64,000 bases of DNA, from contig NZ_JWJH01000019.1 in NCBI RefSeq assembly GCF_000949865.1, forward strand, positions 124,001-188,000, read 5' to 3'. Origin of the DNA: Rhizobium nepotum 39/7. Lineage in GTDB: Bacteria; Pseudomonadota; Alphaproteobacteria; Rhizobiales; Rhizobiaceae. Both the position numbers and the translations under genes were made by a program. This document shows positions 26,932 to 48,751 of the stretch, piece by piece; within the stretch, counting starts at the first letter, position 1, and each line of letters starts with the position of its first letter. Below the pieces are notes generated by a model. It ran no database searches. It was given only the letters and a program-made list of their open reading frames with translations, and was not told the DNA's origin.

Positions 26932-27068
26932 CCGCTTGTTTCTTCTCCCCGAGGGGGAGAAGGTCGCGGCAGCGGGATGAGGGGGCGAGGGTAGAGATAT
27001 TCGGTGAGGGTGCCCCCTCATCCGACCCTTCGGGCCACCTTCTCCCCGGCGGGGAGAAGAAACAAGCG
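26932..27068. repeat. intergenic palindromic repeat, family A, copy A4
   Basis: The element starts CCGCTTGTTTCTTCTCCCC and ends with the near-perfect complement GGGGAGAAGAAACAAGCGG, giving ~19-bp terminal inverted repeats around ~100 bp that is also partly symmetric. It occupies the 280-bp gap between the ATPase and the response regulator. Confidence 0.88.
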
Positions 27069-27153
27069 GCCCTCACTCGGCCAATAAATTGGTGCTCTGC
27101 GCTCAAGCGGAAAATATATGTTGGCGAAACCCTACCACATCACGCGTTGCTAT

Positions 27154-28083
27154 TCACCCCTGATGCAGGATATGCGCGGCCTTGACGGCGGCGGAGGCGC
27201 GGTTTTCGACGCCGAGTTTCACATAGATCTGTTCCAGATGTTTGTTCACGGTTCTGGCGGAAAGGCCGAGAATATCGCCGATATCGCGGTTGGATTTGCC
27301 CTTGGCGATCCATAGCAGCACTTCCGATTCCCGCGTCGTCAGGGCGAAATGGCTTTTGAGCAGATGGTCGTCGGATTTCTCGTTGGCGGCGGTCAGGCGG
27401 AAGAGGTATTCGTCCGGCCCCATCGCGCCGAGGAAGGAGAGTTGCAGGGCGGGACGCCCGGCCTCTGTGATCGTCAGCGGCGCGTCACGGACGGCATCCA
27501 CCGACGCCCTGTCTGCAAGCCAGCCGGAAATATGGGCAACGACGATCTCCAGCCCATCATCGCGGCCGGTGGCGGCGTTGACCAGCCTCGTCGCCTGCGG
27601 TGTGGACCAGTGGATGGCGCCATTGGCGCGCACGGCGAGCAGGTGGCGGCCGGCGGCATCGAGCGCCACGCGGGCGCTCTGCGCCGAGCGGGCATTGGAG
27701 AGGTGAACGCGGATGCGGGCGCGCAGCTCATCGATATTGATCGGCTTGGTCAGATAATCCACGCCGCCGGATTCCAGCGCCCGCACTACATGTTCGGTCT
27801 CCGTCAGCCCGGTCATGAAAATCACCGGCACCTGCGCCACGGCCGCATTGGCCTTCAGGCGGCGGCAGGTCTCGAAACCGTCCATGGCCGGCATGACGGC
27901 GTCGAGCAGGATGATATCGGGGGTGATGCGTTCGGCAATGTTGAGTGCGGCCTGACCCGAGGTGGCGATCAGCGCCGAAAAGCCGGATTGCTCCAGCGCT
28001 TCGGTCAGGAAACCGAGCGTTTCGGGGCTGTCATCCACCAGCAATACGATGTCTCTCGGCAGTGCCGCACCTGGCCCGCTCAT
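27154..28083 (-). CDS. response regulator with LuxR-type DNA-binding domain
   Basis: In this 309-residue regulator, residues 10-125 are a receiver domain (VLLVDDSPETL, phospho-acceptor Asp61 in IILLDAVMPAMDGF, Lys in YLTKPINIDEL). Residues ~130-235 form a middle PAS-like region. The end is a LuxR/NarL helix-turn-helix (LTTRESEVLLWIAKGKSNRD, GLSARTVNKHLEQIYVKLGV). It overlaps the 3' end of the preceding hybrid kinase by 4 nt (ATGA), so it is very likely that kinase's partner. The arrangement resembles CrbS/CrbR-type transporter-kinase systems. Confidence 0.92.
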   Translation of the reverse strand: MSGPGAALPRDIVLLVDDSPETLGFLTEALEQSGFSALIATSGQAALNIAERITPDIILLDAVMPAMDGFETCRRLKANAAVAQVPVIFMTGLTETEHVVRALESGGVDYLTKPINIDELRARIRVHLSNARSAQSARVALDAAGRHLLAVRANGAIHWSTPQATRLVNAATGRDDGLEIVVAHISGWLADRASVDAVRDAPLTITEAGRPALQLSFLGAMGPDEYLFRLTAANEKSDDHLLKSHFALTTRESEVLLWIAKGKSNRDIGDILGLSARTVNKHLEQIYVKLGVENRASAAVKAAHILHQG

Positions 28084-31000
28084 GCCTTGCCGTCTCCCCT
28101 GTCGCTATCTTCAAACCGCTTGAGAAAATGGGCGTAACCGGCCAGATCGAAGGCCTGGACATAGGCGCCAAGCTCTTGCGTAAAGGGTAGGTTATCCGTG
28201 TTGCGGGCAAGATCGGCGAGTTTCGCCTCTATGCCGCGTATGTAGCCTATTTCGCCGAGCCGCTGCAAATCCTTGATATGAATTACGCCCGGATGGACGA
28301 TCTGCGCCGGTGGCTGCGGTGCGGGTGCCGGAGGCAGGTCCGTATCGTAAACCCATTTCAGGCCGAGATGAACGGCGAGCCTGTCGCAAAGCTGGCGGAT
28401 ATCGACCGGTTTGGCGATGGCGTCGTTGTGATTGTCTTCGCCAGCACTTCCACTCCCACTGGCAATAGCGCCGTCACCGATATTGGCGGAGAGCATGATG
28501 AGCGGGGCCGTCTGGCCGGCTTCGCGCAGCTTCGTCACGAGCTGCCAGCCGGTCATGCCGGGCATGGAAATATCGATGAGGAAGAGATCCGGCTTCACGC
28601 CTTCGATCAGGGTCAGGCATTCCGGTGCGCTCTGGGCGGTCAGCACCACGAAATCCAGCGGCACCAGCACCTGCCGCATCAACTCGCGGTGATCCTCATT
28701 GTCATCAACCACGACGATGGTGCGGCGCGGGCCGGAATAGGAACGGATGGTCTTTTCCAGCGCAGGCGCTGTGCTTGGCCGGTGAATGGCGGACAGCATG
28801 AGGCGGACGCGGAAGGTGGAACCCTCGTCCTTTTCGCTGGAGACCGAAATCTCGCCGCCGAGCGTATTGGTCAGAAGCCTTGTGATGGTGAGCCCGAGGC
28901 CGAGACCTGGCATGGGCCGCACGCTTTCGGCCTCGCCGCGCTGGAAGGGCTCGTAGATGCGGGGAAGGTCCTTCTCGGCGATGCCGCGCCCGGTGTCGGA
29001 CACGGTGAAGCTCGCGACCTGGCTGCGATAGGCGACATCGAAGGTGACGCTGCCTTCATCGGTAAACTTGATGGCGTTGGAAAGCAGGTTGACGAGTATC
29101 TGGCGCAGGCGCTTCTCGTCCGTGCGCACATATTGCGGCAAAGCGCGGGTGCGCTCATGGCGGAATTCCAGTCCCTTGGCCTGCGCCTGCGGGCGGAACA
29201 TGTCGACGATCTGGTCGAGGAAATCCTGAATGTTGATCTCGTTGGAATAGACCTGCAACCGGCCCGCCTCGATCTTGGAGATATCCAGAAGCCCGTCGAT
29301 CAGGCCGGAGAGATGGTCGGCGGAGCGGCGGATGACCTTGATGGCCGATTGCCGGGGCGGCGGAATGGTCTCGTCGCGTTCGAGGATCTGGGCGTAACCT
29401 AACACGGCATTGAGAGGGGTGCGCAATTCGTGGCTGAGGCCGACCACGTAACGGCTCTTGGCGCGGTTGGCGGCCTCGGCCGTTTCCTTGGCGTCCTGAA
29501 GGGCGGCGTCGGTCTTCTTGTGGGCCGCGATTTCTTTCAGGAGCAGCGTATTCTGGCGCGAGGATTCCTCTTCCGCCACCACCCGGCTGTCATGGGCAAG
29601 AACGAGGAACCAGCAGACGATGCCGGCGATGACCGCGAAGACGAAAAACACGACGAGGATGGTGCGGTTGACCACATCAGCGGTTTCCGGCGAGGCGGTG
29701 CCGACCTGATGGGCGATCAGCGCCAATATGCCGCCGATGGCGGTGACGGCAATCGCCGCCGCCATGCCGTAACGCCCGAGCCGGGTGGCGAGCTTCGCCA
29801 CCAGTTGATGGGGTAGGAAGGATTTCGCGACGGTCGCGACCTGATAATTCAGCTTCGCTTTCGGCTTGCACATGTCATGGCAGCGGCTGTCCAGCGAGCA
29901 GCAGAGCGAACAGATCGGCGCGGCATAGGCCGGGCACCATGCCATGTCCTCCGGTTCGAACGGGTGTTCGCAGATCGAGCAGGTGATGGCGCTCAGCTCG
30001 CGCCATTTCTGCCGCGGCTTGCGGGCCAGATAGAACTTGCCCTTCGTGCCCCAGGCGATCAGCGGCGAGGCGATGAAGGCGACGATGAGGGTCAGATAGG
30101 GTGCGAGCGAGGCGGCGAGTGCGCCGAAGGTGCCGAAATGCGCCATCAGCGCGATGGTGGCCGAAAGCGCCATGGAGCCGACGCCGACCGGATTGATATC
30201 GTAGAGATGGGCGCGTTTGAACTCGATGCCGGGTGGGGCAAGGCCTAACGGCTTGTTGATGAAAAGATCGGCGGAAATGGTGCAGAGCCACGCCATGGCG
30301 ATGATGGAGAAGATGCCGAGCGTTTCTTCCAGCAGGCGGTAGATGCCGAGTTCCATCAACAGCAGCGCGATCGCCACATTGAAGACCAGCCAGACGACGC
30401 GGCCGGGGTGGCTGTGGGTGAGGCGCGAGAAGAAGTTGGACCAGGCGAGCGAGCCCGCATAGGCGTTCATGACGTTGATCTTCAGCTGCGACACGACCAC
30501 GAAGGCGACCATCAGCAGCATGGCGGCCGTGTGGTTGGGGATCATGTAGCCGAAGGCGGTCAGATACATCTGGGCCGGATCGGCGGCGCGGTCCACGGAA
30601 ACGCCGGAACTGAAGGTCAGCACCACCAGGAAGGAGCCGGCCAGAAGCTTCGGCACGCCGACGACGACCCAGCCCGCACCCGCCAGAAAGACGGCGATGC
30701 GGTGGCGAAGCCTGCTCTGGCCTTCGGCGGGCAGGAAGCGCAGGAAGTCCACCTGTTCGCCGATCTGCGACATCAGCGCGAGGATGACGGCGGAAGCCGC
30801 GCCGAACTCGACCAGATTGAAATCCGCCAGGGTGCCGGGTGGGCCGGAGGCATGATGAATGCCGGCAAAGGCCCGCCAGAGATCATATTTTTCCCAGTCC
30901 ATCAAAGCGATGAAGATGAAGGGCAGCACGTTCAGAACGATCCAGAAGGGCTGGGTGATGATCTGGAAGCGGCTGATGAGGCGCACGCCATGGGTGACGA

Positions 31001-31487
31001 GCGGAATGACCATGACGGCGGAAATGATGTAGCCGATCCACAGGGGAATGCCGAGTGCCAGTTCCAGCGCGCCGGACATGATCGACGCCTCGATGGCGAA
31101 AAGCATGAAGGTGAAGGAGGCGTAGATCAACGAGGTGATGGTGGAGCCGATGTAACCGAAACTTGCGCCGCGCGTCAGAAGATCGATGTCGACGCCATGG
31201 CGAATGGCATAGCGGCTGATCGGCAGGCCGACGGCAAGCATGGCGACGGCCGCGACGATGATGGCGTAAAAGGCGTTGGTGGTGCCGTAGGACAGCGTGA
31301 TCGCGCCGCCGATGGCTTCCAGCGCCAGAAAGGAAATCGCGCCGATGGCGGTGTGGGAAATGCGGTTCGACGAAAATTGCCGGGCGCTTTTGGCGGTGAA
31401 GCGCAGCGCATAATCTTCCAGCGTCTGGTTGGCGACCCAGCGGTTATATTCGCGCCTGACGGGGATGATGCGTTGCCGTGCGGCCAT
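28080..31487 (-). CDS. hybrid histidine kinase fused to an NCS1-like permease
   Basis: This ~1135-residue protein has five parts. Residues 1-~480 form a ~12-helix permease of the NCS1 (purine/cytosine/allantoin) type (LTRGASFGYIGSTITSLIYA, QLKINVMNAYAGSLAWSNFF). A cytoplasmic cluster of eight cysteines follows (C503, 506, 518, 526, 529, 530, 536, 540). Two more helices (~575-640) come next. The kinase core has H686 in GLSHELRTPLNAVLGY, LVNLLSNAIKFTDEG, DTGRGIAEKDLP and GLGLGLTITRLL. A receiver has Asp972 in FLIDISMPGMTGWQL. A helical tail of ~70 residues ends it. The ATG at 31487 is chosen; an ATG at 31556 would overlap the SDR gene. It probably senses or imports a small solute; ligand unknown. 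Confidence 0.88.
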   Translation of the reverse strand: MAARQRIIPVRREYNRWVANQTLEDYALRFTAKSARQFSSNRISHTAIGAISFLALEAIGGAITLSYGTTNAFYAIIVAAVAMLAVGLPISRYAIRHGVDIDLLTRGASFGYIGSTITSLIYASFTFMLFAIEASIMSGALELALGIPLWIGYIISAVMVIPLVTHGVRLISRFQIITQPFWIVLNVLPFIFIALMDWEKYDLWRAFAGIHHASGPPGTLADFNLVEFGAASAVILALMSQIGEQVDFLRFLPAEGQSRLRHRIAVFLAGAGWVVVGVPKLLAGSFLVVLTFSSGVSVDRAADPAQMYLTAFGYMIPNHTAAMLLMVAFVVVSQLKINVMNAYAGSLAWSNFFSRLTHSHPGRVVWLVFNVAIALLLMELGIYRLLEETLGIFSIIAMAWLCTISADLFINKPLGLAPPGIEFKRAHLYDINPVGVGSMALSATIALMAHFGTFGALAASLAPYLTLIVAFIASPLIAWGTKGKFYLARKPRQKWRELSAITCSICEHPFEPEDMAWCPAYAAPICSLCCSLDSRCHDMCKPKAKLNYQVATVAKSFLPHQLVAKLATRLGRYGMAAAIAVTAIGGILALIAHQVGTASPETADVVNRTILVVFFVFAVIAGIVCWFLVLAHDSRVVAEEESSRQNTLLLKEIAAHKKTDAALQDAKETAEAANRAKSRYVVGLSHELRTPLNAVLGYAQILERDETIPPPRQSAIKVIRRSADHLSGLIDGLLDISKIEAGRLQVYSNEINIQDFLDQIVDMFRPQAQAKGLEFRHERTRALPQYVRTDEKRLRQILVNLLSNAIKFTDEGSVTFDVAYRSQVASFTVSDTGRGIAEKDLPRIYEPFQRGEAESVRPMPGLGLGLTITRLLTNTLGGEISVSSEKDEGSTFRVRLMLSAIHRPSTAPALEKTIRSYSGPRRTIVVVDDNEDHRELMRQVLVPLDFVVLTAQSAPECLTLIEGVKPDLFLIDISMPGMTGWQLVTKLREAGQTAPLIMLSANIGDGAIASGSGSAGEDNHNDAIAKPVDIRQLCDRLAVHLGLKWVYDTDLPPAPAPQPPAQIVHPGVIHIKDLQRLGEIGYIRGIEAKLADLARNTDNLPFTQELGAYVQAFDLAGYAHFLKRFEDSDRGDGKA

Positions 31488-31530
31488 GCCTAATATCCAG
31501 CGCCTTTCCGCAAAGTGGGTCCCGTTATCC

Positions 31531-32301
31531 TCATAGCCGCACCGACATGCCGCCATCCACCGTCAGCACATGACCGTTGACGAAGGAGGCCGCGTCGCTG
31601 GCCAGGAACAGGGCCGCGCCGGCGATTTCATCCGGCCTGCCCCAGCGCTCCAGCGGCACGCGCAGCTTTGCAAAAGCGACCATCTCAGGGTTTTCGGAAA
31701 GGGCGGCGTTGGTTTCCGTGGCGAACATGCCGGGGGCGATTGCGTTGCTGGTGATGCCACGCGCGCCATATTCCACGGCGATGGCGCGCATCAGCCCGGT
31801 CAGCCCCTGTTTGGCAACGGGATAGATCGCATCGCCCGGGCGGACGATATGGCCGAGAATGGAGGTGATGGTGATGATGCGGCCGTAGCCGTTGGTGTTC
31901 ATCGCTTCAGCCGCGTCGCGCGACAGCGAGATGGAGGAGGTGAGGTCGGTACGGATAAGGTCCAGCACGTCCTCGTCATTAAATTCGGCAAGCGGGCGGC
32001 GGTCGCGCGCGCCGACATTGTTGACGAGAATGTCGAGATGGCCGAACTCGTCCATGATGCGGCGGATAAGGGCGCTTCCAGCGGCGGTATCGGCGATATC
32101 GAAGGCCGCATAATCGGCCTTTCCACCCGCTTGCCGAAGAATGCCGACCGCCTGTTCCAGCGTCTGTGCATTACGGCCGGTCAGCCACACATGGGCGCCA
32201 GCTTCGGCAAAGGCGCTGGCGATTTCGAAACCGAGGCCGCGGCCGCTGCCGGTGATGACGGCGATGCGGTTTTCGAGAGAGAACTTGTCGAGAATGCCCA
32301 T
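31531..32301 (-). CDS. short-chain dehydrogenase/reductase (gluconate 5-dehydrogenase-like)
   Basis: This 256-residue NAD(P)-dependent oxidoreductase has the cofactor motif TGSGRGLGFEIA (TGxxxGxG), NNVGARDRR (NNAG-type), the catalytic Ser in ITSILGHIV and YPVAKQG (YxxxK). The C-terminus LTVDGGMSVRL is standard. It resembles sugar-acid dehydrogenases of the gluconate 5-dehydrogenase group. It lies directly upstream of the permease-kinase gene, 43 nt away, so they may be co-transcribed and its substrate may relate to the signal sensed. Confidence 0.88.
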   Translation of the reverse strand: MGILDKFSLENRIAVITGSGRGLGFEIASAFAEAGAHVWLTGRNAQTLEQAVGILRQAGGKADYAAFDIADTAAGSALIRRIMDEFGHLDILVNNVGARDRRPLAEFNDEDVLDLIRTDLTSSISLSRDAAEAMNTNGYGRIITITSILGHIVRPGDAIYPVAKQGLTGLMRAIAVEYGARGITSNAIAPGMFATETNAALSENPEMVAFAKLRVPLERWGRPDEIAGAALFLASDAASFVNGHVLTVDGGMSVRL

Positions 32302-32518: not shown

Positions 32519-33553
32519 TCAGGCAGCAGCCGACTTTGCGAGCGGCACTTCTGCAATCGTCTTCAGAACGACGGAAGCGATCTGGTAAGGGCAGCCCTGC
32601 GAATTCGGACGGCGGTCTTCGAGGTAACCACGGTAACCGTTGTTGACGAAGGAGTGCGGAACGCGGATCGAAGCGCCACGGTCGGCAACGCCGTAGGAGA
32701 ACTTGTTCCACGGAGCGGTTTCGTGCTTGCCGGTCAGGCGCAGATGGTTGTCCGGACCGTAAACGTCGATGTGCTCCTGCCAGTTCTTGGCGAAAGCGGC
32801 CATGAGGGCTTCGAAATATTCCTTACCGCCAACTTCACGCAGGAACTTGGTGGAGAAGTTGCAATGCATGCCGGAGCCGTTCCAGTCGGTATCGCCGAGC
32901 GGCTTGCAATGGAATTCGACGTCGATGCCGTACTGTTCGCAAAGGCGTACCAGCAGGTAGCGGGCGATCCAGATCTGGTCGGCGGCGCGCTTGGAGCCCT
33001 TGCCGAATACCTGGAATTCCCACTGACCCTTGGCCACTTCGGCGTTGATGCCTTCGTGGTTGATGCCTGCTTCGAGGCAGAGGTCGAGATGTTCTTCAAC
33101 GATTTCGCGGGCAACCGAGCCGACGTTCTTGAAGCCGACGCCGGTGTAATACGGACCCTGGGGAGCCGGGTAACCCTGCTCGGGGAAGCCGAGCGGACGG
33201 CCGTCCTGGTAGAAGAAATATTCCTGTTCGAAACCGAACCATGCGTCCTCGTCGTCGAGGATGGTCGCGCGGCTGTTCGATGCATGCGGGGTGACGCCGT
33301 CAGGCATCATGACTTCGCACATGACGAGCACGCCGTTGGTGCGGGCCGGATCGGGATAGATCGCAACGGGCTTCAGCACGCAATCCGACGAGTGGCCTTC
33401 GGCCTGCTGGGTGGACGAGCCATCAAAACCCCAAAGCGGCAGCTGCTCGAGCGTCGGGAATTCGTCGAATTCCTTGACCTGTGTCTTGCCGCGCAGGTTA
33501 GGGACCGGCTTATAACCGTCAAGCCAGATGTACTCGAGTTTGAACTTAGTCAT
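32519..33553 (-). CDS. glnII: glutamine synthetase II (eukaryote-type)
   Basis: GlnII makes glutamine from glutamate, ammonia and ATP. It is the octameric eukaryote-like form found besides GlnA in rhizobia. The 344 residues show LEYIWLDGYKPVPNLRGKTQ, GFDGSSTQQAEGHSSDC, the metal/ATP segments GQWEFQVFGKG and NGSGMHCNFSTKFLR, NKFSYGVADRGASIRVP and YLEDRRPNSQGCPYQ. The ATG at 33553 follows GAGAGG 6 nt upstream. A sigma-54-type promoter at 33648-33663 indicates nitrogen control, as known for rhizobial glnII. Confidence 0.97.
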   Translation of the reverse strand: MTKFKLEYIWLDGYKPVPNLRGKTQVKEFDEFPTLEQLPLWGFDGSSTQQAEGHSSDCVLKPVAIYPDPARTNGVLVMCEVMMPDGVTPHASNSRATILDDEDAWFGFEQEYFFYQDGRPLGFPEQGYPAPQGPYYTGVGFKNVGSVAREIVEEHLDLCLEAGINHEGINAEVAKGQWEFQVFGKGSKRAADQIWIARYLLVRLCEQYGIDVEFHCKPLGDTDWNGSGMHCNFSTKFLREVGGKEYFEALMAAFAKNWQEHIDVYGPDNHLRLTGKHETAPWNKFSYGVADRGASIRVPHSFVNNGYRGYLEDRRPNSQGCPYQIASVVLKTIAEVPLAKSAAA

Positions 33554-34042
33554 TACGAACCTCTCATAGGTAAAGATGCGAAGCCTTGAGGCCCCGGTGG
33601 CTTTCGCCGCCGGAAGCGCTTTCGCGTTCAAGGGCTGACGGGTTAGATGCATGCCGCGTGCCAGATTGGCGATGTTTTGCGAATTCTTCGAAAAATCTTT
33701 CAGGCGCGCGTGAGGCCAATGGGGCCGATATGGCCGTCGTCCACTCGTGCTGCGCTGCGGCAGACAAATCGAACCCCAATGTTTCGTCAGTGATTCCTAA
33801 CAGATAGCGGGTAGCATCGCCTAAAATGCCCTGTTGCGGTGCAATGTTTTCGATTGCGAGCGACGGATCGGCATTTGCCCCAAAAACCGGCGCTTCCGGA
33901 ATGGTTTTCCTTGCCGAACGACCATTTAATGCCTATATTTTTTGCAACGTGATTTTTTTTTAATCAGATGGAGCGAATCCGATCTTTGCGGGTTTGCTTC
34001 AAGACCAAAGTGCTTCGATGCAAACAAAGTGAGATGTTCGAT
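33554..34042. other. 489-bp divergent region glnII / DUF2735
   Basis: No gene is seen. It holds the glnII sigma-54 promoter and 5' leader of ~85 nt. A GGTGCA half-word at 33839-33844 could be part of an NtrC site, but I see no full dyad. The right part (33900-33965) is rich in T runs. Confidence 0.5.
33648..33663 (-). promoter_or_regulatory. sigma-54 (-24/-12) promoter of glnII
   Basis: The minus strand reads TGGCACG-CGGC-ATGCA. It matches TGGCACG-RNNN-TTGCW at 11 of 13 defined positions, with both invariant GG and GC doublets and the exact spacing. The expected start would be ~85 nt before the glnII ATG. Confidence 0.75.
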
Positions 34043-34242: not shown

Positions 34243-34383
34243 GCCGCTTATTTCTTCTCCCCGCCGGGGAGAAGATGCCCCGAAGGGGTAGATGAGGGGG
34301 CAACCTCTCAGTCTATATCTAACCTCGCCCCCTCATCCCGCTGCCGCGACCTTCTCCCCGGCGGGGAGAAGAAACAAGCGGCG
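34243..34383. repeat. intergenic palindromic repeat, family A, copy A5
   Basis: It starts GCCGCTTATTTCTTCTCCCC and ends CGGGGAGAAGAAACAAGCGG, so the termini are near-perfect inverted repeats. The left inner part differs from A2/A4 (ATGCCCCGAAGGGGTAGATG), whereas the right half is the shared CCTCATCCCGCTGCCGCGAC. It lies between DUF2735 and urtA. Confidence 0.88.
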
Positions 34384-34484: not shown

Positions 34485-34504
34485 TACGTCAATTGACGTA
34501 TACG
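34485..34504. promoter_or_regulatory. 16-bp palindrome upstream of urtA
   Basis: TACGTCAATTGACGTA (34485-34500) is a perfect palindrome. It overlaps a second one, CGTATACG (34497-34504). It lies ~100 bp before the urtA start codon, a good position for a dimeric regulator. Confidence 0.5.
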
Positions 34505-34538
34505 GTTTCTCACCCACGAGATCGATAGTCCCTTCCAG

Positions 34539-34575
34539 CAGCGGTCAACGATACCGCTGAGGCCCGACGAGGGCT
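34539..34575 (+). ncRNA. two tandem hairpins with ACGA loops before urtA (guanidine-II-like?)
   Basis: Hairpin 1 is CAGCGGT-CAACGAT-ACCGCTG (34539-34559) and hairpin 2 is GGCCC-GACGA-GGGCT (34561-34575). Both loops contain ACGA, and AAGGAGAGG follows at 34580. The guanidine-II (mini-ykkC) riboswitch is two hairpins with ACGR loops just before a ribosome site. Against this, the linker is one base, shorter than usual, and the closing pairs differ from the family members I remember. Confidence 0.35.
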
Positions 34576-34598: not shown

Positions 34599-35888
34599 AT
34601 GATATTCCGCAAGACGCTTAGCGCCGCGCTGCTTGGCGCGATCATGTCCACCACTGCCTTCCACGGCGCATTCGCCGCCGATGACACGATCAAGGTCGGC
34701 GTGCTGCATTCGCTTTCCGGCACCATGGCGATTTCAGAGACGACGCTGAAGGACGCCATGCTGATGCTCATCGACGAGCAGAACAAGAAGGGCGGCGTTC
34801 TCGGCAAGAAACTGGAAGCCGTCGTGGTCGATCCGGCTTCGGACTGGCCGCTATTTGCCGAAAAGGCCCGCCAGCTGATTTCGCAGGACAAGGTCGCCGC
34901 CGTTTTCGGCTGCTGGACGTCTTCGTCGCGCAAATCCGTACTGCCGGTTTTCGAGGAGCTGAATTCCCTCCTGTTCTACCCCGTGCAGTATGAGGGTGAG
35001 GAATCCTCCCGCAACATCTTCTATACCGGTGCTGCGCCGAACCAGCAGGCCATTCCGGCCGTCGATTATCTCGCCAGCACCGAAGGCGTCGAGCGCTGGG
35101 TTCTGGCCGGCACGGACTATGTCTATCCGCAGACCACAAATAAGATCCTGAAGGCCTACCTGATGTCCAAGGGCGTCAAGGAAGAGGACATCATGATCAA
35201 CTACACGCCGTTCGGCCAGTCCGACTGGCAGACGATCGTGTCCGACATCAAGAAGTTCGGCTCGGCCGGCAAGAAGACCGCCGTGGTTTCCACCATCAAC
35301 GGCGATGCCAACGTGCCGTTCTACAAGGAACTGGCGAACCAGGGCATCAAGGCCGAGGATATTCCGGTCGTCGCCTTCTCGGTCGGCGAAGAAGAGCTGG
35401 CCGGTCTCGATACGACGCCGCTGGTCGGCCACCTTGCCGCCTGGAACTACTTCCAGTCCGTCGATACCGAGGTCAACGCCGAGTTCATCAAGACCTGGCA
35501 TGCGTTTACCAAGAACGACAAGCGCGTGACGAACGACCCGATGGAAGCCGCCTATATCGGCTTCAGCGCCTGGGTAAAGGCCGTGGAATCCGCCGGCACG
35601 ACCGATACGGACGCGGTTCTCGACAGCATCATCGGCGTTTCGGTGCCAAACCTTTCGGGCGGTTATTCCACCGTCATGCCTAACCACCACATCACCAAGC
35701 CGGTGCTGATCGGCGAAATCCAGGCCGACGGCCAGTTCGAAATCGTGCAGCAGACCCCGCAGGTCGTGGGCGACGAATGGTCCGACTACCTGCCGGATTC
35801 GAAGGACCTGATCTCGGATTGGCGCAAGCCGATGTCCTGCGGCAACTTCAATGTCGCCACGGGCAAGTGCGGCGGCAAGGGTAGCTGA
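34599..35888 (+). CDS. urtA: urea ABC transporter substrate-binding protein
   Basis: This 429-residue periplasmic protein has a signal peptide (LLGAIMSTTAFHGAFAAD) and the UrtA fold: TIKVGVLHSLSGTMAISETT, VFGCWTSSSRKSVLPVFEEL, LLFYPVQYEGEESSRNIFYT and NHHITKPVLIGEIQADGQFE. The family binds urea or short-chain amides. It heads the urt operon and is separated from urtB by repeat B3. Confidence 0.95.
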   Translation: MIFRKTLSAALLGAIMSTTAFHGAFAADDTIKVGVLHSLSGTMAISETTLKDAMLMLIDEQNKKGGVLGKKLEAVVVDPASDWPLFAEKARQLISQDKVAAVFGCWTSSSRKSVLPVFEELNSLLFYPVQYEGEESSRNIFYTGAAPNQQAIPAVDYLASTEGVERWVLAGTDYVYPQTTNKILKAYLMSKGVKEEDIMINYTPFGQSDWQTIVSDIKKFGSAGKKTAVVSTINGDANVPFYKELANQGIKAEDIPVVAFSVGEEELAGLDTTPLVGHLAAWNYFQSVDTEVNAEFIKTWHAFTKNDKRVTNDPMEAAYIGFSAWVKAVESAGTTDTDAVLDSIIGVSVPNLSGGYSTVMPNHHITKPVLIGEIQADGQFEIVQQTPQVVGDEWSDYLPDSKDLISDWRKPMSCGNFNVATGKCGGKGS

Positions 35889-35966
35889 TAAACGGGGACG
35901 GTTGCCGCCCCCTTGTTTGGGGGGCGGGCAATTTGTTCTCCGATAGTTGAAAACTGAGCCAGAACG

Positions 35967-36120
35967 CCCCCCTCTGCCCTGCCGGGCATCTCCCCCACAG
36001 GTGGGGAGATCGATTTGCGGCAAGGTTTCGCCCTTCTCGTCGTTCGAGATTGAGCAATGCAGGCGCGTCTTACCGATCTCCCTCCTTGTGGGGGAGATGT
36101 CCGGCAGGACAGAGGGGGGT
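35967..36120. repeat. family B repeat, copy B3, between urtA and urtB
   Basis: This 154-bp inverted repeat has its left arm with TGCCC-TGCC-GGGCA and its right arm with TGTCC-GGCA-GGACA. It occupies most of the 282-bp urtA-urtB gap, inside an operon. Confidence 0.9.
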
Positions 36121-36170
36121 GGCGGCACCCACAGACGGCGCTTTTACCGGAAACGCTCTAAGGAACCGAC

Positions 36171-37784
36171 ATGACGATCCGATCTTTTCTCGGAGCTGTT
36201 TTTTTCTGGCTCACCCTTGGGATCGCGGCCCAATCCGTGGCGCAAAGCGATCCGAAGGCGTTGATCGATGCGCTCGGCACTGCGGATTTCAAGCAGGCCG
36301 AAACTTTGATCGGCCAGATCGCCGCCACCGGCGATGCGCGGGTCGTGCCGGCGCTCGAGGCTTTCGCTTCGGGTGATCTTTACGTGCGCAAGACCGACAA
36401 TCTGGTTTTCATGACGCGGCCCGCCGGGTCCAACTTCACGCTGATCGATCCGCTGTCGGGCGAAAGTGCAGGCGAAGCGCCGAAGGCTACGGTTACCAAG
36501 ATCAGGGTCAATAATAATCTTCGCCGCGTCATTCGCGCCGCAATGGGCGGGCTGACCCTGCTCAGCCCGGAAAAATCCGTGCGACTTTCGGCGGCCGATG
36601 CCGTTCTGAAGGCACCGAGCGCGGAAAATCTCGAATTGCTGGAAACGGCCATCGCCAAGGAAACCGACAATGAAGTGCGGACCCGGATGGAGGAGGCGCG
36701 GGCCGTTTCGCTGCTTTCCTCCGACCGCCCGCTCGAACAGAAGAAAGACGCGATCGCGACCATCAAGAAGCTGGGCGGGCGCGACGCGATCGGCATTCTG
36801 ATGGCGGCGTCCGCTTCCGTCGATCCAAGCCTGAAACCCGATATCGACAGTGCGATATCAGGCATTCAAAGCTCGCTTGCGTTCTGGGACTACGCGCAGA
36901 ACATCTGGTACGGCCTGTCGCTCGGTTCCGTACTTCTGCTCGCCGCCATCGGCCTTGCCATCACCTTCGGCGTGATGGGCATCATCAACATGGCGCATGG
37001 CGAGATGGTGATGATCGGCGCTTACTCCACCTTCATGGTGCAGGAGGTGATCCGTTCGAATTTCCCCGGCCTGTTCGACTGGTCGCTGGCCATCGCTCTG
37101 CCCGTCGCCTTTCTGGTCACGGCCTTTGTCGGCCTCGTCATGGAACGCGGCGTCATCCGCTTCCTTTACGGGCGACCGCTGGAGACGCTGCTGGCCACCT
37201 GGGGCATCTCGCTGATGCTGCAACAGGGCGTGCGCTCCATCTTCGGCCCGACCAATCGCGAAGTCGGCAGCCCCGGCTGGATGTCGGGTTCCTTCAGCGT
37301 CGGTTACCTCAATTTCACCTGGAACCGGGTGTGGATCGTCTGCTTCTCGCTGTCGGTGTTCTTCGCGCTGCTGGTGCTCCTGAAGCGCTCCTCCTTCGGC
37401 CTGCAGATGCGCGCCGTGACCCAGAACCGCCGCATGGCCTCCTCCATGGGCATTCGCACGCCCTGGGTGGATGCCTTCACCTTCGCGCTCGGTTCCGGCG
37501 TTGCCGGCCTTGCGGGCGTGGCGCTTTCGCAGATCGACAATGTCTCGCCCAATCTCGGCCAGAGCTACATCATCGACAGTTTCATGGTGGTGGTGTTCGG
37601 CGGTGTCGGCAATCTCTGGGGAACGCTGGTCGGCGCGCTGTCTCTCGGCGTGCTCAACAAGTTCCTTGAGCCGACTGTCGGCGCCGTGCTCGGCAAGATC
37701 CTCGTGCTCGTCCTCATCATCCTGTTCATCCAGAAGCGGCCGCGTGGTCTCTTCGCACTCAAGGGAAGGGCGATCGAAGCATGA
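36171..37784 (+). CDS. urtB: urea ABC transporter permease UrtB
   Basis: This 537-residue protein has a signal-like N-terminus (SFLGAVFFWLTLGIAAQSVA) and a ~220-residue extracytoplasmic region of helical repeats (FKQAETLIGQIAATGDARVV). A LivH-like membrane domain from ~240 follows (LGSVLLLAAIGLAITFGVMG, GIINMAHGEMVMIGAYSTFM, MRAVTQNRRMASSMGIRTPW). The long N-terminal domain is a known feature of many proteobacterial UrtB proteins. The stop overlaps urtC (ATGA). Confidence 0.94.
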   Translation: MTIRSFLGAVFFWLTLGIAAQSVAQSDPKALIDALGTADFKQAETLIGQIAATGDARVVPALEAFASGDLYVRKTDNLVFMTRPAGSNFTLIDPLSGESAGEAPKATVTKIRVNNNLRRVIRAAMGGLTLLSPEKSVRLSAADAVLKAPSAENLELLETAIAKETDNEVRTRMEEARAVSLLSSDRPLEQKKDAIATIKKLGGRDAIGILMAASASVDPSLKPDIDSAISGIQSSLAFWDYAQNIWYGLSLGSVLLLAAIGLAITFGVMGIINMAHGEMVMIGAYSTFMVQEVIRSNFPGLFDWSLAIALPVAFLVTAFVGLVMERGVIRFLYGRPLETLLATWGISLMLQQGVRSIFGPTNREVGSPGWMSGSFSVGYLNFTWNRVWIVCFSLSVFFALLVLLKRSSFGLQMRAVTQNRRMASSMGIRTPWVDAFTFALGSGVAGLAGVALSQIDNVSPNLGQSYIIDSFMVVVFGGVGNLWGTLVGALSLGVLNKFLEPTVGAVLGKILVLVLIILFIQKRPRGLFALKGRAIEA

Positions 37785-38959
37785 TTACCGGCTTCCTCCT
37801 GCGCGCGCTCGATCGCCGCATTTCCATCGCCATCGCCATCATCCTGGCCATCGCCGTGCTGGTGCCCGCCTCCAACCTGTTGCTGCCGGCTGACAGCGCA
37901 TTCCGTATCCCCACCTACATCATGTCGATGCTCGGCAAATATCTGGCCTATGCGCTGCTCGCGCTGGCGCTTGATCTGGTCTGGGGTTATTGCGGCATTC
38001 TCTCGCTTGGCCACGCCGCCTTCTTCGCGCTCGGCGGTTATGCCATGGGCATGTATCTGATGCGGCAGATCGGCACGCGCGGCGTCTACGGCCATCCCGT
38101 GCTGCCGGATTTCATGGTGTTCCTCAACTGGAAGGAACTGCCGTGGTTCTGGCACGGCTTCGACATGTTCTGGTTTGCGGCGCTGATGGTGCTGGTGGTG
38201 CCGGGTCTTCTCGCCTTCGTGTTCGGCTGGTTTGCCTTCCGCTCGCGCGTCAACGGCGTTTATCTCTCCATCATCACCCAGGCCATGACCTACGCCCTGC
38301 TGCTTGCCTTCTTCCGCAACGACATGGGCTTCGGCGGCAATAATGGGCTGACCGATTTCAAGGACATTCTCGGCTTTTCCGTGCAGGCGGACGGCACCCG
38401 TGCCGTGCTGTTTGCCATGACGGCGGTGATGCTCGCGATCTCGCTGCTGATCGCGTCCGGCATCGTCAATTCCAAATTCGGCAAGGTGCTGGTGGGCGTG
38501 CGTGACGCTGAAAGCCGGGTGCGCTTCCTCGGTTTCCGGGTGGAAAACATCAAGCTCTTTACCTTCGTCGTCTCGGCCATGATGGCGGGCATTGCCGGCG
38601 CGCTGTTCGTGCCGCAGGTCGGCATCATCAATCCGGGCGAATTTTCTCCCGCCAATTCCATTGAAGTAGTGGTGTGGACGGCGGTGGGCGGGCGCGGCAC
38701 GCTGATCGGGCCGATCATCGGCGCTATTCTGGTCAATGGCGGCAAGAGCTATTTCACCGGCGCTTTCCCCGAATTCTGGCTGTTTGCGCTGGGTGGCCTG
38801 TTCATCGCGGTGACGCTGTTCTTCCCGAAGGGCATCGTCGGCACCGTGCAGCATTATCTGGCCGGACGTCGCGAAAAACGCATCGCGCGGGCGGCGAGCA
38901 AGGCCGCGCAGCCGGGCAATGACGGTGCCGCGACAGTGTCCCAACAGGCGGCGGAGTGA
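37781..38959 (+). CDS. urtC: urea ABC transporter permease UrtC
   Basis: This 392-residue second permease is LivM-like: LALDLVWGYCGILSLGHAAF, ALGGYAMGMYLMRQI, FGGNNGLTDFKDILGF and GVRDAESRVRFLGFRVENIK (coupling helix). About ten membrane helices are visible. It overlaps urtB by 4 nt and ends 7 nt before urtD. Confidence 0.95.
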   Translation: MITGFLLRALDRRISIAIAIILAIAVLVPASNLLLPADSAFRIPTYIMSMLGKYLAYALLALALDLVWGYCGILSLGHAAFFALGGYAMGMYLMRQIGTRGVYGHPVLPDFMVFLNWKELPWFWHGFDMFWFAALMVLVVPGLLAFVFGWFAFRSRVNGVYLSIITQAMTYALLLAFFRNDMGFGGNNGLTDFKDILGFSVQADGTRAVLFAMTAVMLAISLLIASGIVNSKFGKVLVGVRDAESRVRFLGFRVENIKLFTFVVSAMMAGIAGALFVPQVGIINPGEFSPANSIEVVVWTAVGGRGTLIGPIIGAILVNGGKSYFTGAFPEFWLFALGGLFIAVTLFFPKGIVGTVQHYLAGRREKRIARAASKAAQPGNDGAATVSQQAAE

Positions 38960-38966
38960 GACGGAT

Positions 38967-39728
38967 ATGAACACGATTTCCGAAAACAGAACCAAAAGCC
39001 TGCTTTATCTGGATGGCGTTTCCGTCTCCTTCGATGGGTTCAGGGCGCTCAATTCTCTTTCCTTCGTGGTGGAGCCGGGCGAGCTTCGCGCCATCATCGG
39101 CCCGAATGGTGCGGGCAAGACGACGATGATGGATATCATCACCGGCAAGACGAGGCCGGATAGCGGCACGGTGCTGTTCGAAGACAGCGTCGATCTCACG
39201 AAAAAGGACGAGGCGGATATCGCCCAGCTCGGCATCGGCCGGAAATTTCAGAAGCCGACGGTGTTTGAAAGCCACACCGTCTGGGACAATCTGGAACTGG
39301 CGCTGAACCGCAAGCGCGGTGTTTTCGCCACGCTGTTCTACCGGCTGACGGAAGAGGACAAGGCGCGCATCGAGGAAATCCTCGCCACCGTGCGCCTCAG
39401 CCACCGCCGCAGCGATCTTGCCGCCAATCTCTCGCACGGTCAGAAACAATGGCTGGAAATCGGCATGCTCTTGGCGCAAGAGCCGAAGCTGCTGCTGGTG
39501 GACGAGCCGGTGGCCGGCATGACGGATGCGGAGACAGCCGAGACCGCCGTGCTTCTGAAAGAAATCGCCAAGACCCGGTCGGTGGTGGTGGTGGAGCACG
39601 ACATGGGCTTCATCCGCGAGTTGGGCGTGAAGGTGACGTGTCTGGCCGAAGGCTCGGTGCTCGCCGAAGGGTCGATCGATTTCGTGTCCAGCGATCCGAA
39701 GGTGATCGAGAATTATCTGGGGCGGTGA
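38967..39728 (+). CDS. urtD: urea ABC transporter ATPase UrtD
   Basis: This 253-residue ATPase has Walker A GPNGAGKTT, signature LSHGQKQWLEIGMLL and Walker B LLLVDEPVAGMTD; VVVVEHDMGFIR carries the switch His. ELAL-NRKRGVF is a UrtD-type insertion. The ATG at 38967 is chosen, with GGAG ~11 nt upstream; the in-frame extension lies within urtC and lacks family sequence. Confidence 0.95.
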   Translation: MNTISENRTKSLLYLDGVSVSFDGFRALNSLSFVVEPGELRAIIGPNGAGKTTMMDIITGKTRPDSGTVLFEDSVDLTKKDEADIAQLGIGRKFQKPTVFESHTVWDNLELALNRKRGVFATLFYRLTEEDKARIEEILATVRLSHRRSDLAANLSHGQKQWLEIGMLLAQEPKLLLVDEPVAGMTDAETAETAVLLKEIAKTRSVVVVEHDMGFIRELGVKVTCLAEGSVLAEGSIDFVSSDPKVIENYLGR

Positions 39729-39750
39729 TGGAAGCGTCTGCGTTGGCCAT

Positions 39751-39904
39751 ACCCCCCTCTGCCCTGCCGGGCATCTCCCCCTCAAGGGGGGAGATCAGAT
39801 GCCGCACCCGCTCGCTCCATCGCCAAGGTGTTATGGGGCAGGGTGTCGGCCGCTTGCCGATCTCCCCCCTTGTGGGGGAGATGCCCGGCAGGGCAGAGGG
39901 GGGT
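39751..39904. repeat. family B repeat, copy B4, between urtD and urtE
   Basis: This 154-bp inverted repeat has arms ACCCCCCTCTGCCCTGCC and GGCAGGGCAGAGGGGGGT, with a centre unlike the other copies. It fills the urtD-urtE gap, 35 bp before the urtE start. Confidence 0.9.
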
Positions 39905-39939
39905 AGCGCCTCCCACCAATGCGCCAATGGAGTTTCACC

Positions 39940-40635
39940 ATGCTGAACGTCGAAAACATCAACCTCCACTACGGCGCGGCACAAGCCCTGCGCGGCGTGT
40001 CGCTCACGGCAGAGATGGGCAAAATCACCTGTGTTCTCGGTCGCAATGGTGTGGGCAAAAGCTCGCTGCTGCGCGCCGTTACCGGTCAGCATGCCATCAG
40101 TGGCGGGTCGATCAGCTTCGAAGGGGCGGCACTGGATGGGCTGGCGCCCTATCATCGGGCCAAGCGCGGCGTCGGTTACGTGCCGCAGGGTCGTGAAATC
40201 TTCCCGCTGCTCAGCGTGCAGGAGAACCTCGAAAGCGGTTATGCGCCGTTGCCGCGCAAGGAGCGTTTCATTCCCGACGATATTTTCAGCCTGTTTCCGG
40301 TGCTGCAAACCATGCTGGGCAGGCGCGGCGGCGATCTCTCCGGCGGGCAGCAGCAGCAGCTGGCAATCGGCCGGGCGCTGGTGACGCGGCCGAAAATTCT
40401 GGTCCTCGACGAGCCGACCGAGGGCATCCAGCCGTCGATCATCAAGGATATCGGCCGGGCGATCAAATATCTGCGCGATTCAACCGGCATGGCCATTCTG
40501 CTCGTCGAGCAATATCTGGATTTCTGCCGCGAGCTTGCCGACTATGTCTACATCATGGACCGGGGCGAGATCGTGCATGAGGGGCTTGCCGAAACACTGG
40601 ATACGCCCGAGGCACGGCGTCATCTGACAGTATAA
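39940..40635 (+). CDS. urtE: urea ABC transporter ATPase UrtE
   Basis: This 231-residue ATPase has Walker A GRNGVGKSS, signature LSGGQQQQLAIGRAL and Walker B ILVLDEPTEGIQPS. LLVEQYLDFCRELADYVYIM follows. The GIQPS pattern is characteristic of UrtE. The ATG at 39940 has GGAG 8 nt upstream. It is separated from urtD by repeat B4 but is surely the same functional unit. Confidence 0.95.
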   Translation: MLNVENINLHYGAAQALRGVSLTAEMGKITCVLGRNGVGKSSLLRAVTGQHAISGGSISFEGAALDGLAPYHRAKRGVGYVPQGREIFPLLSVQENLESGYAPLPRKERFIPDDIFSLFPVLQTMLGRRGGDLSGGQQQQLAIGRALVTRPKILVLDEPTEGIQPSIIKDIGRAIKYLRDSTGMAILLVEQYLDFCRELADYVYIMDRGEIVHEGLAETLDTPEARRHLTV

Positions 40636-40886: not shown

Positions 40887-42140
40887 ATGCATCAAGACTT
40901 TGCCCCTGGCCGGGCCGTCCGGCTGTTCCGCTCCGTCCGCACCCTCGTTCTGGGCCTTGCGATATGCGCGAGCGTTGGCGCCGCAGCGTCGGCATCGACC
41001 TGCGGTCAGGTTTCCGGACCCGGCATGGCGCCGGGCAGGCATGATTTTTCCATTCTCTCCAGTGGTCAAAAACGCGACGGCGTCTATTTCGTTCCCTCTG
41101 CCTATGACGGAAAAAAGCCGTTGCCGGTGGTGTTCGATTTCCACGGTTCCAACAGCAATCCGCACGGCCAGCTGAACCGCAGCGGCTGGGACAAGCTTGC
41201 CGAGCGCGACGGCCTTGTCGTGGTGGCGCTGGCGGGCAGCCTCAATGGCGAAATGCCCGGCACCCATGCCTGGAACGTTCCGGGCGTCACCACGCGCCCC
41301 GGTGGGCTGGACGAGGTGAGTTTCATTCGCGATACGATCGACATGGTGAAGGGCAAGTTCTGCGTCGACGAGGAGCGTTTTTACGGTTCCGGTTATTCCG
41401 GCGGCGGGCGCATGCTGTCGCAATTCATCTGCAACGGCAGCGCGGATTTTACCGCCGCCGGCTTCGTCGCGTCGCTGCGTGCCGGTTATCCGCTGGAGAC
41501 CGAGGGCAAATGGGGACCGGATGCGGCAAGCTGCAAGCCGGCGCGGCCGATGTCGATCATCGCCTTTGCCGGGTTGAAGGATCCCGCCAATCCCTATCAG
41601 GGCGGCGGCAAGTCCTATTGGCAATATGGCGGCGAGACGGCGCTGAAGCGCTGGGCCGAAATTGACGGCTGCAAGGGCGGCGCAAAAAGCAGGACGGGCG
41701 AGAGTTTCACCCTCAATTCCTACGATGTCTGCAAGGGCGGCGCGCGCATCCAGTCCTATCTTATCGAGAATTGGGACCATGCCTGGCCGCGCGCCACCAT
41801 GAAGGCGGAAGTGCTGGCCGCCAGCGCCGTCCTCACCCGCAAACCGGGCGGCGAACAGACGCCGAAGGCGGAACCCGCCGTGGAGCGCAAGATGCCCACA
41901 GGTGAAGTGACGCGCACGGTTGATGCAGCGGAAAGAATGTGGGACTTCTTCCGCAACACGGAAGGACAGCTGGTGGTGGACGCCGTTGTCAAAAAGGATT
42001 GCGGCGCCAAGGCCGGGTCCGCTTCCGCAACCGCTTCGGAGACCGCGTGCAGCCAGAACAGCAAGTCATCCGCCCTTCCGGTATCCAAGACGCTGAACCT
42101 GTCCGGCAGCAACGCGCCCGTGGCAGAGGACGCATTGTAA
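40887..42140 (+). CDS. secreted esterase, PHB depolymerase/feruloyl esterase-like
   Basis: This 417-residue exported hydrolase has a signal peptide ([19 protein letters not shown]). The esterase core shows [20 protein letters not shown] (oxyanion HGxxxN), nucleophile [18 protein letters not shown] (Ser in GYSGG) and a late NWDHAWPR for the catalytic His. The C-terminal ~110 residues are Lys/Ala/Ser-rich and not family-like. COG3509-type enzymes cleave polyhydroxybutyrate or acetyl/feruloyl esters. Its 3' end overlaps ureD by 94 nt in another frame. Confidence 0.83.
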
Positions 42141-42898
42141 CCAAGGCAGTCGAAGGGCGCAGCCGGCTGGACCAGTTGTTTCAGGAAGGTTGCGCCAAGA
42201 TCCGCCTGCCGGATACGTTTTCCAATGAGATCGAGGCTATTCTCATCAATTCCTCCGGCGGTTTGACCGGCGGAGATGAAATCGAGTGGCAGGCGGTTGC
42301 CGGTGCCGGCACATCGCTGGTGGTGACGACGCAAGCCTGCGAGAAGGTCTACAAGGCATCCTCCGGAACCGCCACCGTCACCGCCCGCGCTACCGCCGGG
42401 CCGGGTGCGAGATTGCACTGGCTGCCGCAGGAAACCATTCTTTTCGATCGCGCATCGCTGACCCGCAGGCTGGAAGCCGATCTCGACGCATCTTCCGAAT
42501 TCATCGCCGTCGAAGCTGTGCTGCTCGGGCGTCAGGCCATGGGCGAGGCCATGGAGCATGGCCTGTTCCGGGATCGCTGGCGCATTCGCCATGGCGGCCG
42601 GCTGGTGCATGCCGAAGAGCTGCTGCTTGCGGGCGAAGTGGCGGAACTGACCGCGAAACCGGCGGTGCTTGCCGGCCAGGTGGCCTTCGCCACGCTTCTC
42701 TATATCGGGCCTCTGGCCGAGGCGCTTTTGCCTAAAATCCGGGCTATTGCCGGGGAAAGCGGCGGCGCCAGCGAATGGCAGGGCAAGCTTGTCGTGCGCG
42801 TTTCCGCCACTGACGGTTTCTCCCTCAGAAAAATACTTTTTCCGATCATTTCGCTCTTGCGAAACGGTGCGCCAGTGCCGAAAGTCTGGAATCTGTAA
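42047..42898 (+). CDS. ureD: urease accessory protein UreD
   Basis: UreD is the scaffold that binds apo-urease and recruits UreF and UreG for nickel insertion. The 283 residues show [78 protein letters not shown] and [10 protein letters not shown]-type sequence. A GTG start at 42047 is inferred from GGAG at 42038-42041 with 5-nt spacing. It places the start inside the esterase gene. Confidence 0.92.
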
Positions 42899-43007: not shown

Positions 43008-43310
43008 ATGAACCTTACTCCGAGAGAAAAAGACAAGCTGCTGATTTCCATGGCCGCCATGGTGGCGCGCCGCCGGCTGGAGCGTGGCGTGAAGCTGAAC
43101 TATCCCGAAGCGATTGCGCTGATTAGCGATTTCGTGGTCGAGGGTGCGCGCGATGGCCGTGCCGTGGCCGACCTGATGGAAGCCGGCGCGCATGTCATTT
43201 CCCGCGATCAGGTGATGGAAGGTATCGCCGAGATGATCCATGATGTGCAGGTGGAGGCGACGTTTCCTGATGGCACCAAGCTTGTGACCGTTCACGAACC
43301 GATACGGTAA
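43008..43310 (+). CDS. ureA: urease gamma subunit
   Basis: This 100-residue structural subunit ([51 protein letters not shown]-type [15 protein letters not shown]) is full length. It assembles with UreB and UreC into the cytoplasmic nickel enzyme that splits urea to ammonia and carbamate. Confidence 0.98.
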
Positions 43311-43575: not shown

Positions 43576-43595
43576 GAGAGATAAAGGGGAGCACC

Positions 43596-48646: not shown

Positions 48647-48751
48647 ATGCTCCGTGGCGTATCCCATTCGTCTTGAAATCACGCCTTGAAATCACCCCGC
48701 CTATCCGTCAAAAATCGAAACCCCAAGACTGTTTCTGAAACGGATCATCCC

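Follow-up and report, generated by a model that had tools for sequence, protein, structure and literature searches.

In CbrA, CrbS and RpuS, the SLC5/STAC kinases, a transporter domain is fused to a (hybrid) histidine kinase. The available excerpts of the relevant reports describe CrbS and RpuS as paired with LuxR-type regulators (PMC5715377, PMC9100948), and CrbR as dependent on an inverted repeat (-52 to -36) immediately ahead of the promoter (PMC5715377). In Ks-Amt5, as far as the accessible part of its description goes, a domain from a nitrogen-nutrient transporter likewise serves as the sensor of the kinase to which it is fused (PMC5764959). Here we analyze a comparable protein encoded in a stretch of 64,000 nucleotides from Rhizobium nepotum 39/7 (contig NZ_JWJH01000019.1, positions 124,001 to 188,000; 'the window'). 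Its gene (28080-31487, minus strand) specifies 1135 amino acids that join an NCS1-type permease domain to a hybrid histidine kinase. Judged from sequence comparison, it is probably a transporter-derived receptor kinase, or 'transceptor', whose ligand would be urea and, across many of its relatives, formamide or short amides; it would induce the genes for uptake and hydrolysis of these compounds. To our knowledge, little is known of the sensors through which bacteria respond to external urea or formamide by inducing high-affinity uptake; some enterobacteria have UreR, a regulator of the AraC type.

We aligned 137 homologues. The 'Rhizobiaceae loci' are the best 80 of 428 relatives in named genomes, with the record titles Agrobacterium, Rhizobium, Ferirhizobium or 'Rhizobiales bacterium'; among these best 80 of 428, the nearest named relatives of the sensor belong to Agrobacterium. 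The 'wider loci' (n = 57) comprise 19 from an alphaproteobacterial sample and 38 from a Pseudomonadota sample. In the class sample (289 genomes) full-length matches occurred in the window's own genome and in 19 others (49-59% identity), and one further genome has a stand-alone permease; the stand-alone permease P0002/L121 lies outside the set of 19. In the phylum sample (398 genomes) 57 genomes had some match and several carry two sensors; 38 loci were fetched with their flanks, out of 56 full-length sensor places (own included). Partial matches (G491, G503, G462, G306 and G562) were excluded, and two related loci, L180 and L181, were not counted as sensors. Flank lengths are unequal and some stop at a contig end, so neighboring genes may be missed.

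An NCS1-type permease domain on a hybrid histidine kinase

The reading frame is open from 28080 to 31556 on the minus strand, and the alignment of the homologues begins at an ATG at 31487, which we took as the start. From there the protein comprises a permease domain (residues 12-490; 30018-31454), a module of eight cysteines (C503-C540; 29868-29981), a two-helix transmembrane linker (residues 560-640; 29568-29810), a histidine kinase core consisting of HisKA (677-742, with H686) and HATPase_c (789-898; together 28794-29459), a receiver domain (Response_reg, 924-1037, with D972; 28377-28718) and a C-terminal helical tail (1072-1130; 28098-28274), all encoded on the minus strand. The presence of HisKA, HATPase_c and a receiver in one chain, each recognized by Pfam, places the protein in the hybrid kinase class; residues 1-640 gave no Pfam match. 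Hydropathy within those residues has 12 peaks between about 45 and 472, grouped by eye as transmembrane (TM) helices, plus two TM peaks at 574-592 and 610-628. A structure model of residues 1-640, built from 36 close homologues, had a mean predicted local distance difference test (pLDDT) score of 42, too low to use. H686 is histidine in 19/19 distant alphaproteobacterial homologues and 38/38 from the phylum sample; D972 is aspartate in 19/19 and 36/38, the remaining two being a receiver-less form. A profile of the helix pair (TM2) found all 38 of the phylum-sample sensors and the permease-less kinase L181, and a profile of the tail (TAIL) found 31 of the 38. Pfam, hydropathy and profiles thus agree on the order of parts that an initial annotation had read from the sequence: permease, two further helices, kinase core (H686), receiver (D972) and tail.

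Profile comparisons indicate that the permease domain is a divergent member of NCS1 by descent, and not of SLC5. The Pfam model PF02133 matched 0 of 23 family members at E up to 10 and nothing in the sensor's own genome, the gathering cut-off not being reached, and the NCBIfam cytosine permease model matched 8 of the 23 (best 1.5e-7), with the window's own protein unmatched. When the family (A1) was compared by hhalign with a five-member NCS1 set, the two aligned over 429 columns (probability 99.7, E 9.4e-27), and that set itself finds Mhp1 at 9e-42. A joint profile (A6) found Mhp1 at 3.4e-40 and CodB at 3.4e-16; a profile built from sensors alone matched no PDB chain. The stand-alone relative L180 is matched both by the permease profile (2e-45) and by PF02133 above its cut-off. 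PF00474, the SLC5 model, had no match in the protein at E up to 1 and none in its genome, which rules out an SLC5 identity, and Pfam reports no domain between permease and kinase, the presence of a STAC model in that Pfam copy being unchecked. A PDB search with the first 500 residues of the query returned G-protein matches that look like chance, one such match being obtained with L180 alone. An NCS1-like, not SLC5, permease had been proposed at the outset, and the links to Mhp1 and CodB bear this out: the domain matches a transporter family other than SLC5 and the cysteines are conserved, the two points on which that proposal had been staked.

The eight cysteines (503, 506, 518, 526, 529, 530, 536 and 540) lie within 38 residues, spaced CxxC-x11-C-x7-CxxCC-x5-CxxxC as first annotated, and all of them are kept in 137/137 homologues (99/99 alphaproteobacterial and 38/38 from the wider Pseudomonadota). 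Across the 289 alphaproteobacterial genomes the module gave 20 strong matches, which are the 20 sensors (own included), and three further marginal short ones at E ~0.006. A model of the module from 40 homologues reached a pLDDT of 67 and had no Foldseek match at 0.001; for this low-confidence model the best VIA Z scores were 4.2 (HNH) and 3.4 (FYVE-type), LIM and RING also being low, and the match to the FYVE family was weak (E 0.082, in 1 of 19 sequences). The cysteine profile also met zinc-finger repeats in the PDB at 8.5e-5, a match pieced together from several weak stretches and taken as chance. Separately, two records of 'Acinetobacter phage MD-2021a' (H101 and H102; >300 kb) contain a module match of 60% in a gene labeled arcB, and these may be bacterial sequence.

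Relatives of the permease domain also occur without a kinase. K. pneumoniae record CP125156.1 encodes a 535-amino acid 'cytosine permease' (L221:7941-9548) that is 40% identical to the sensor's permease, and in A. baumannii record NZ_CP064203.1 (L254:4331-10563) a stand-alone NCS1 permease and a sensor-regulator pair are divergently encoded on either side of the dyad TACGCAAAATAACGTA. The two permeases are 73.5% identical to each other; the record annotation 'cytosine permease' is carried by two stand-alone relatives. Both the Klebsiella and the Acinetobacter protein keep C503, C506, C526 and C529, the other four cysteines being absent; a remoter stand-alone permease from Paracoccus has the same four, and L180 has none. 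Because the close stand-alone permeases keep only these four, we propose that the module probably holds two metal sites, one (503/506/526/529) common to permeases and one (518/530/536/540) confined to sensors, interleaved like those of cross-braced zinc modules. The module would be cytoplasmic if the count of 12 helices holds.

In the K. pneumoniae record the gene order is ureD, gamma, beta, ureC, ureE, ureG and then the stand-alone permease, which, lying directly after a urease cluster, is a candidate urea permease. No close stand-alone permease was found among the 398 Pseudomonadota genomes at E 1e-20 besides the remoter L180 type, and no near DNA match was found in the E. coli genomes searched. 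Downstream of the L180 permease gene (7949-9442) are a frame that looks nitrilase-like by eye and, at 25-28%, a UrtA-like match.

Sensor and close stand-alone permeases share E133, Q241, E244, Q245, K336, N341 and the CxxC...CxxC tail, and 84 positions of the permease domain are invariant across the 137 homologues and the query. For comparison we used Mhp1, in which we take tryptophans to stack on the ring of the ligand and Ser312 to belong to the Na2 site. Gln121 of Mhp1 aligns with E133 and Asn318 with N341 (137/137 in each case), Trp117 falls on L/F129, and Trp220 corresponds to F228 in one alignment and to A231 in another. A small, ringless ligand would agree with the absence of this tryptophan stack. 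Ser312 aligns with K336 (136 of 137, one unread), a lysine also present in the close stand-alone relatives, which suggests that no sodium is held at Na2. All 137 sensors have E57, in TM1, whereas the two close stand-alone permeases have F at this position, a difference that suggests a change specific to sensors.

These residues bear on whether the domain still transports. As has been proposed for CbrA, it could be a working transporter whose flux or cycling state is read by the kinase, with the same target genes; an entire 12-peak permease with its many invariant positions has been retained, and an available excerpt describes CbrA as a transporter-kinase transceptor (PMC13022988). Against this stand the glutamate that distinguishes all sensors from the two close permeases and the replacement of the Na2-site serine by lysine, although stand-alone relatives also have the lysine; moreover, a dedicated ATP-binding cassette (ABC) transporter adjoins in most loci, and Acinetobacter has a permease paralogue. 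We consider a working transporter possible but unlikely, and the domain more likely to sense occupancy than to act as a bulk transporter.

The same input part is found on a second type of kinase. L182 and L184 carry the permease, cysteine module and helix pair on a shorter, receiver-less kinase (885 and 894 amino acids), adjoining a protein with a receiver and a kinase-like part (by eye), and their neighbors include a formamidase gene and an AmiS/UreI-like gene (the latter named by eye). Genome G365 holds the receiver-less form and also a hybrid form (L183). In L181 (8857-10713) the helix pair, kinase core, receiver and tail are present, and the permease and cysteines are absent. The receiver-less and permease-less forms indicate that permease and cysteine module behave as an input unit.

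Linkage to urea and amide genes and a recurrent palindrome

A LuxR/FixJ-type response regulator (27154-28083, minus strand; Pfam Response_reg and GerE) is encoded next to the sensor, with a 4-base overlap (ATGA) between its start and the kinase stop. A regulator match covering over 60% of the length lies beside the kinase at 132 of 137 loci (80/80, 19/19 and 33/38), so that the LuxR-type partner noted initially is indeed linked. The gene urtA stands divergently upstream of the sensor in 80/80 Rhizobiaceae loci. In the window, urtABCDE (34599-40635) and then urease genes lie 3-20 kb from the kinase start; an FmdA query found no formamidase within the window. The flanks of 53 of the 57 wider loci contain urt, urease, fmdA or amiS genes: urt with fmdA in 32, urease only in 7, urt with urease in 6, urt only in 6, and fmdA with an AmiS/UreI-like gene (by eye) in 2, the other 4 having none. 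Over the 137 loci, flanks with the window's type of UrtA never contain fmdA, and those with the other type never contain urease. Genomes with two sensors can differ in context, as in G492, which has urease beside L186 and urt-fmdA beside L187. These conserved neighbors, genes for uptake and hydrolysis of urea and formamide, point to a ligand class.

The distribution of contexts also bears on two other explanations. One is that the sensing part is the cysteine module itself, which would control the kinase according to redox state or to a metal such as nickel or zinc, with the permease as a membrane scaffold. All eight cysteines are constant, and urease requires nickel; however, the module is equally constant where the flank has urt and fmdA and no urease (32/57 loci), and half of it, four cysteines, occurs in kinase-less stand-alone permeases, which makes a metal or redox sensor very unlikely in our judgment. 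The other is that linkage reflects inherited ancestral gene order and not function. The 80 Rhizobiaceae loci are closely related, and the tree is partly unresolved: built from 63 rows that include only 5 of these 80 loci, it requires 12 changes of context label, fewer of them forced by well-supported branches, and 9 changes of the urt-plus-fmdA label, 3 of them forced, with the deep order largely unresolved. The label changes indicate that context switched more than once, yet stayed with urea and amides. Gene order varies (divergent, same strand, urease side, formamidase side), and the two kinase types have the same context. In addition, the palindrome described below stays with urtA where other genes separate kinase and urtA. 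Inherited order is barely credible as the explanation.

This palindrome was found in 420 bp upstream of 44 sensors (the wider loci with urtA; window and Rhizobiaceae loci excluded), where TACG-N8-CGTA occurs in 28/44 regions, compared with 5-7 for the top 4-bp dyad of ten 60-bp-block shuffles. The window has a single perfect match (shuffle mean 0.15), the predicted operator TACGTCAATTGACGTA, a 16-bp palindrome at 34485-34500, 99 bp before urtA. It stands before urtA and not at the kinase, with a short-chain dehydrogenase/reductase (SDR) gene and a GlnA gene intervening. One-mismatch dyads are at chance in the window (8 found, 8.2 expected), and only perfect dyads count. In a held-out test, the dyad was present within 400 bp before urtA in 80/80 Rhizobiaceae loci, its center lying 100-109 bp from the urtA start in 77 of them. 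Among the wider loci it is near urtA in 27 of the 44 that have this gene, and near the kinase start in 30/57.

The own genome (5.33 Mb) has one match to a refined pattern, TACGYNRNNYNRCGTA, at the urtA site, and 15 to the reversed pattern. The refined pattern has 0-4 matches in each of 14 related genomes (20 places overall), so that a single match in a genome is near background and position carries the weight. In four of five related genomes with a hybrid sensor, a refined match lies less than 7 kb from the sensor, at distances of 157 bp to 6.4 kb; in G465, which has the receiver-less form, the refined pattern was unmatched. An additional dyad lies 108 and 123 bp before fmdA in L204 and L208, respectively. 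In three loci of one genus (L111, L113 and L116) the flank lacks urea genes, urtA is elsewhere, and the kinase is preceded at 52-83 bp by the palindrome, as would be expected if nothing but self-regulation had been retained.

A possible promoter, read from the sequence, abuts the predicted operator at 34501-34529 (plus strand), with a -35-like TACGGT (34501-34506), a 17-bp spacing and a -10-like GATAGT (34524-34529). Of 10 Rhizobiaceae upstream regions, 8 have GATAGT at the corresponding position and a ninth has GATATT; the tenth, L080, was cut at another dyad. The urtA leader (34539-34559) contains a small inverted repeat, CAGCGG/CCGCTG, and a differently spelled repeat seems similarly placed in other Rhizobiaceae.

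The genes of the urea-type ABC transporter, all on the plus strand, are urtA (binding protein; 34599-35888; the gene at the same place in Rhizobium L223 is annotated urtA), urtB (36171-37784), urtC (37781-38959), urtD (38919-39728, start unrefined) and urtE (39919-40635), the last three named by order and by eye. On the same strand follow a gene that we take by eye to be ureD (41939-42898; no family search behind the name, true start inside the frame), ureA (43008-43310; tblastn, 64% to a UreA), ureB (43572-43901; by eye), ureC, the urease alpha subunit (45331-47040; tblastn, 69-71% to two UreC), ureE and ureF (48686-49991; by eye, starts unrefined) and ureG (51370-51975; tblastn, 64% to a UreG). 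The initial annotation had also counted the SDR enzyme as a partner. Its gene is present in the window (31531-32301), but just 12 of the 80 Rhizobiaceae loci have an SDR match at the corresponding position, and the 4 matches in the 57 wider loci (30-32% identity) are elsewhere in the locus; we therefore regard it as lineage-specific, like the GlnA-like gene (32519-33652; 17/80 and 0/57).

GC-rich palindromic intergenic repeats (cttctccccg...cggggagaag) flank the locus, at about 26940-27070 and 34250-34370 of the window. In a plasmid collection, 342 Klebsiella records match the first 640 residues of the sensor, at least one of them (CP125156.1) being the stand-alone permease; among the matches listed, most Klebsiella rows label the sensor 'ATP-binding protein', 'response regulator' or 'ArcB'. 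On plasmid L220 (NZ_CP098166.1) the sensor, labeled 'ATP-binding protein', is divergent from urtABCDE-formamidase genes. A further match, of 83% to residues 1-640, is on NC_003078.1 of Sinorhizobium meliloti 1021 (H48). An IS5-like element lies inside a sensor-matching stretch of Enterobacter roggenkampii NZ_CP056738.1 (H95).

A proposed receptor for urea and short amides

Because of linkage and operator, it is highly likely that the sensor controls urea or amide genes; that the permease domain directly recognizes urea or short amides is reasonably probable. In the mechanism we propose, the NCS1-type domain would bind a small amide in its central site, and the change of state would be relayed through the eight-cysteine module (probably two metal sites) and the two TM helices, to the kinase. 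The kinase would autophosphorylate at H686 and pass the phosphate to the LuxR-type regulator, with the built-in receiver (D972) tuning the signal or storing phosphate. The regulator would then bind the TACG-N8-CGTA palindrome just upstream of the urtA -35 region and activate the genes for uptake (urt) and hydrolysis (ure or fmdA).

Known ligands of NCS1 members include ureides and nucleobases. The sensor might thus control urea or amide genes in response to a classical NCS1 ligand (allantoin, hydantoin, uracil or cytosine), to ammonium or to general nitrogen state. Allantoin and pyrimidines are named as NCS1 ligands in an available excerpt (PMC11633122), and a distant stand-alone relative in Paracoccus aminophilus adjoins hydantoinase genes. 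Against such a ligand, no nucleobase, allantoin or hydantoin gene was recognized by eye in the recurrent clusters of 29 loci (no family search was made), the aromatic-stacking tryptophans are absent, and the contexts track urea, formamide and amides. We find another ligand rather improbable.

Several observations weigh against a urea or amide receptor acting through this operator. Linkage is also compatible with a sensor that detects another signal, for example nitrogen status. Ligand specificity has no explaining column: among alignment columns compared between urea-type and amide-type contexts, none separated them convincingly, the best (balanced score 0.90) lying in the receiver. Such a lack would be expected if urea and amides were both recognized by their -CO-NH2 group. 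The LuxR-type regulator is absent at 5/137 loci, and 4/57 wider loci have no urea or amide gene in the fetched flank, with urtA elsewhere in those genomes. As to the operator, 17 of the 44 wider urtA loci have no perfect dyad between -100 and 500 of urtA, and the one-mismatch forms that some of them have are at chance level in the window. G571, with a hybrid sensor, has no refined match nearby, and that of G531 is 6.4 kb away. The four best urtA stretches from unlinked genomes had no dyad even with one mismatch allowed.

A broader evolutionary reading seems to us evenly balanced between right and wrong. The sensors would form a Pseudomonadota-wide family of urea and short-amide receptors built on an NCS1 permease, sharing ancestry with an unrecognized NCS1 urea permease (the Klebsiella 'cytosine permease'). 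Three gains would have made them sensors: another Cys4 site, interleaved with the first; an acidic residue within TM1; and two helices connecting the domain to a kinase. They would act on their target genes through a dedicated TACG-N8-CGTA operator, and their input module would have been joined to two kinase types.

Comparison with known systems

Among its top-ranked matches, the open-licence literature returned no report of an NCS1-kinase fusion. Known urea and amide systems share parts of the context described here. Methylophilus methylotrophus fmdCABDEF pairs a formamidase with a urea/short-amide ABC transporter, as do the formamidase-type sensor loci, and is reportedly induced by formamide and urea; a putative positive regulator is named in the accessible portion of the report, and no sensor is named there (PMC10781810). 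A preprint on the urea cluster of Klebsiella CG307 names UrtABC and AmiF, and the terms 'histidine kinase' and 'two-component' are absent from the main text available (PMC13060141).

By descent the sensor belongs to NCS1, and by domain content to the hybrid kinases, outside the SLC5/STAC kinases. Its domain has profile homology to Mhp1 and CodB across most of its length; unlike them, it is unrecognized by PF02133, has its tryptophan stack and Na2 hydroxyls replaced, and carries a C-terminal cysteine module. The stand-alone permeases of Klebsiella and Acinetobacter are ~40% identical to the sensor's permease, but have no kinase, four of the eight cysteines and F in place of E57. Permease and sensor form a natural pair in which to study how a transporter becomes a receptor.

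A design parallel to CbrA and CrbS had been suggested from the first inspection, and it has held up: an NCS1 transporter domain is fused to a hybrid kinase with a linked LuxR-type partner. In contrast to the SLC5/STAC kinases, the sensor has NCS1 and not SLC5, its eight-cysteine module and two extra TM helices lie at the position that STAC occupies in those kinases, its palindrome differs, and it is linked to urea and amide genes and not to carboxylate or amino acid genes. The CrbR repeat, as excerpted, has the same operator-promoter layout as that predicted for the window's urtA palindrome, with a different sequence. Ks-Amt5 draws on the Amt family instead, and the accessible part of its report describes neither a receiver nor a cysteine module (PMC5764959). 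By analogy, the sensor would work like CrbS/CrbR and Ks-Amt5. The family thus supplies sensor, regulator, predicted operator and target genes as one testable set, and with it one more transporter family joins those reused as kinase inputs.

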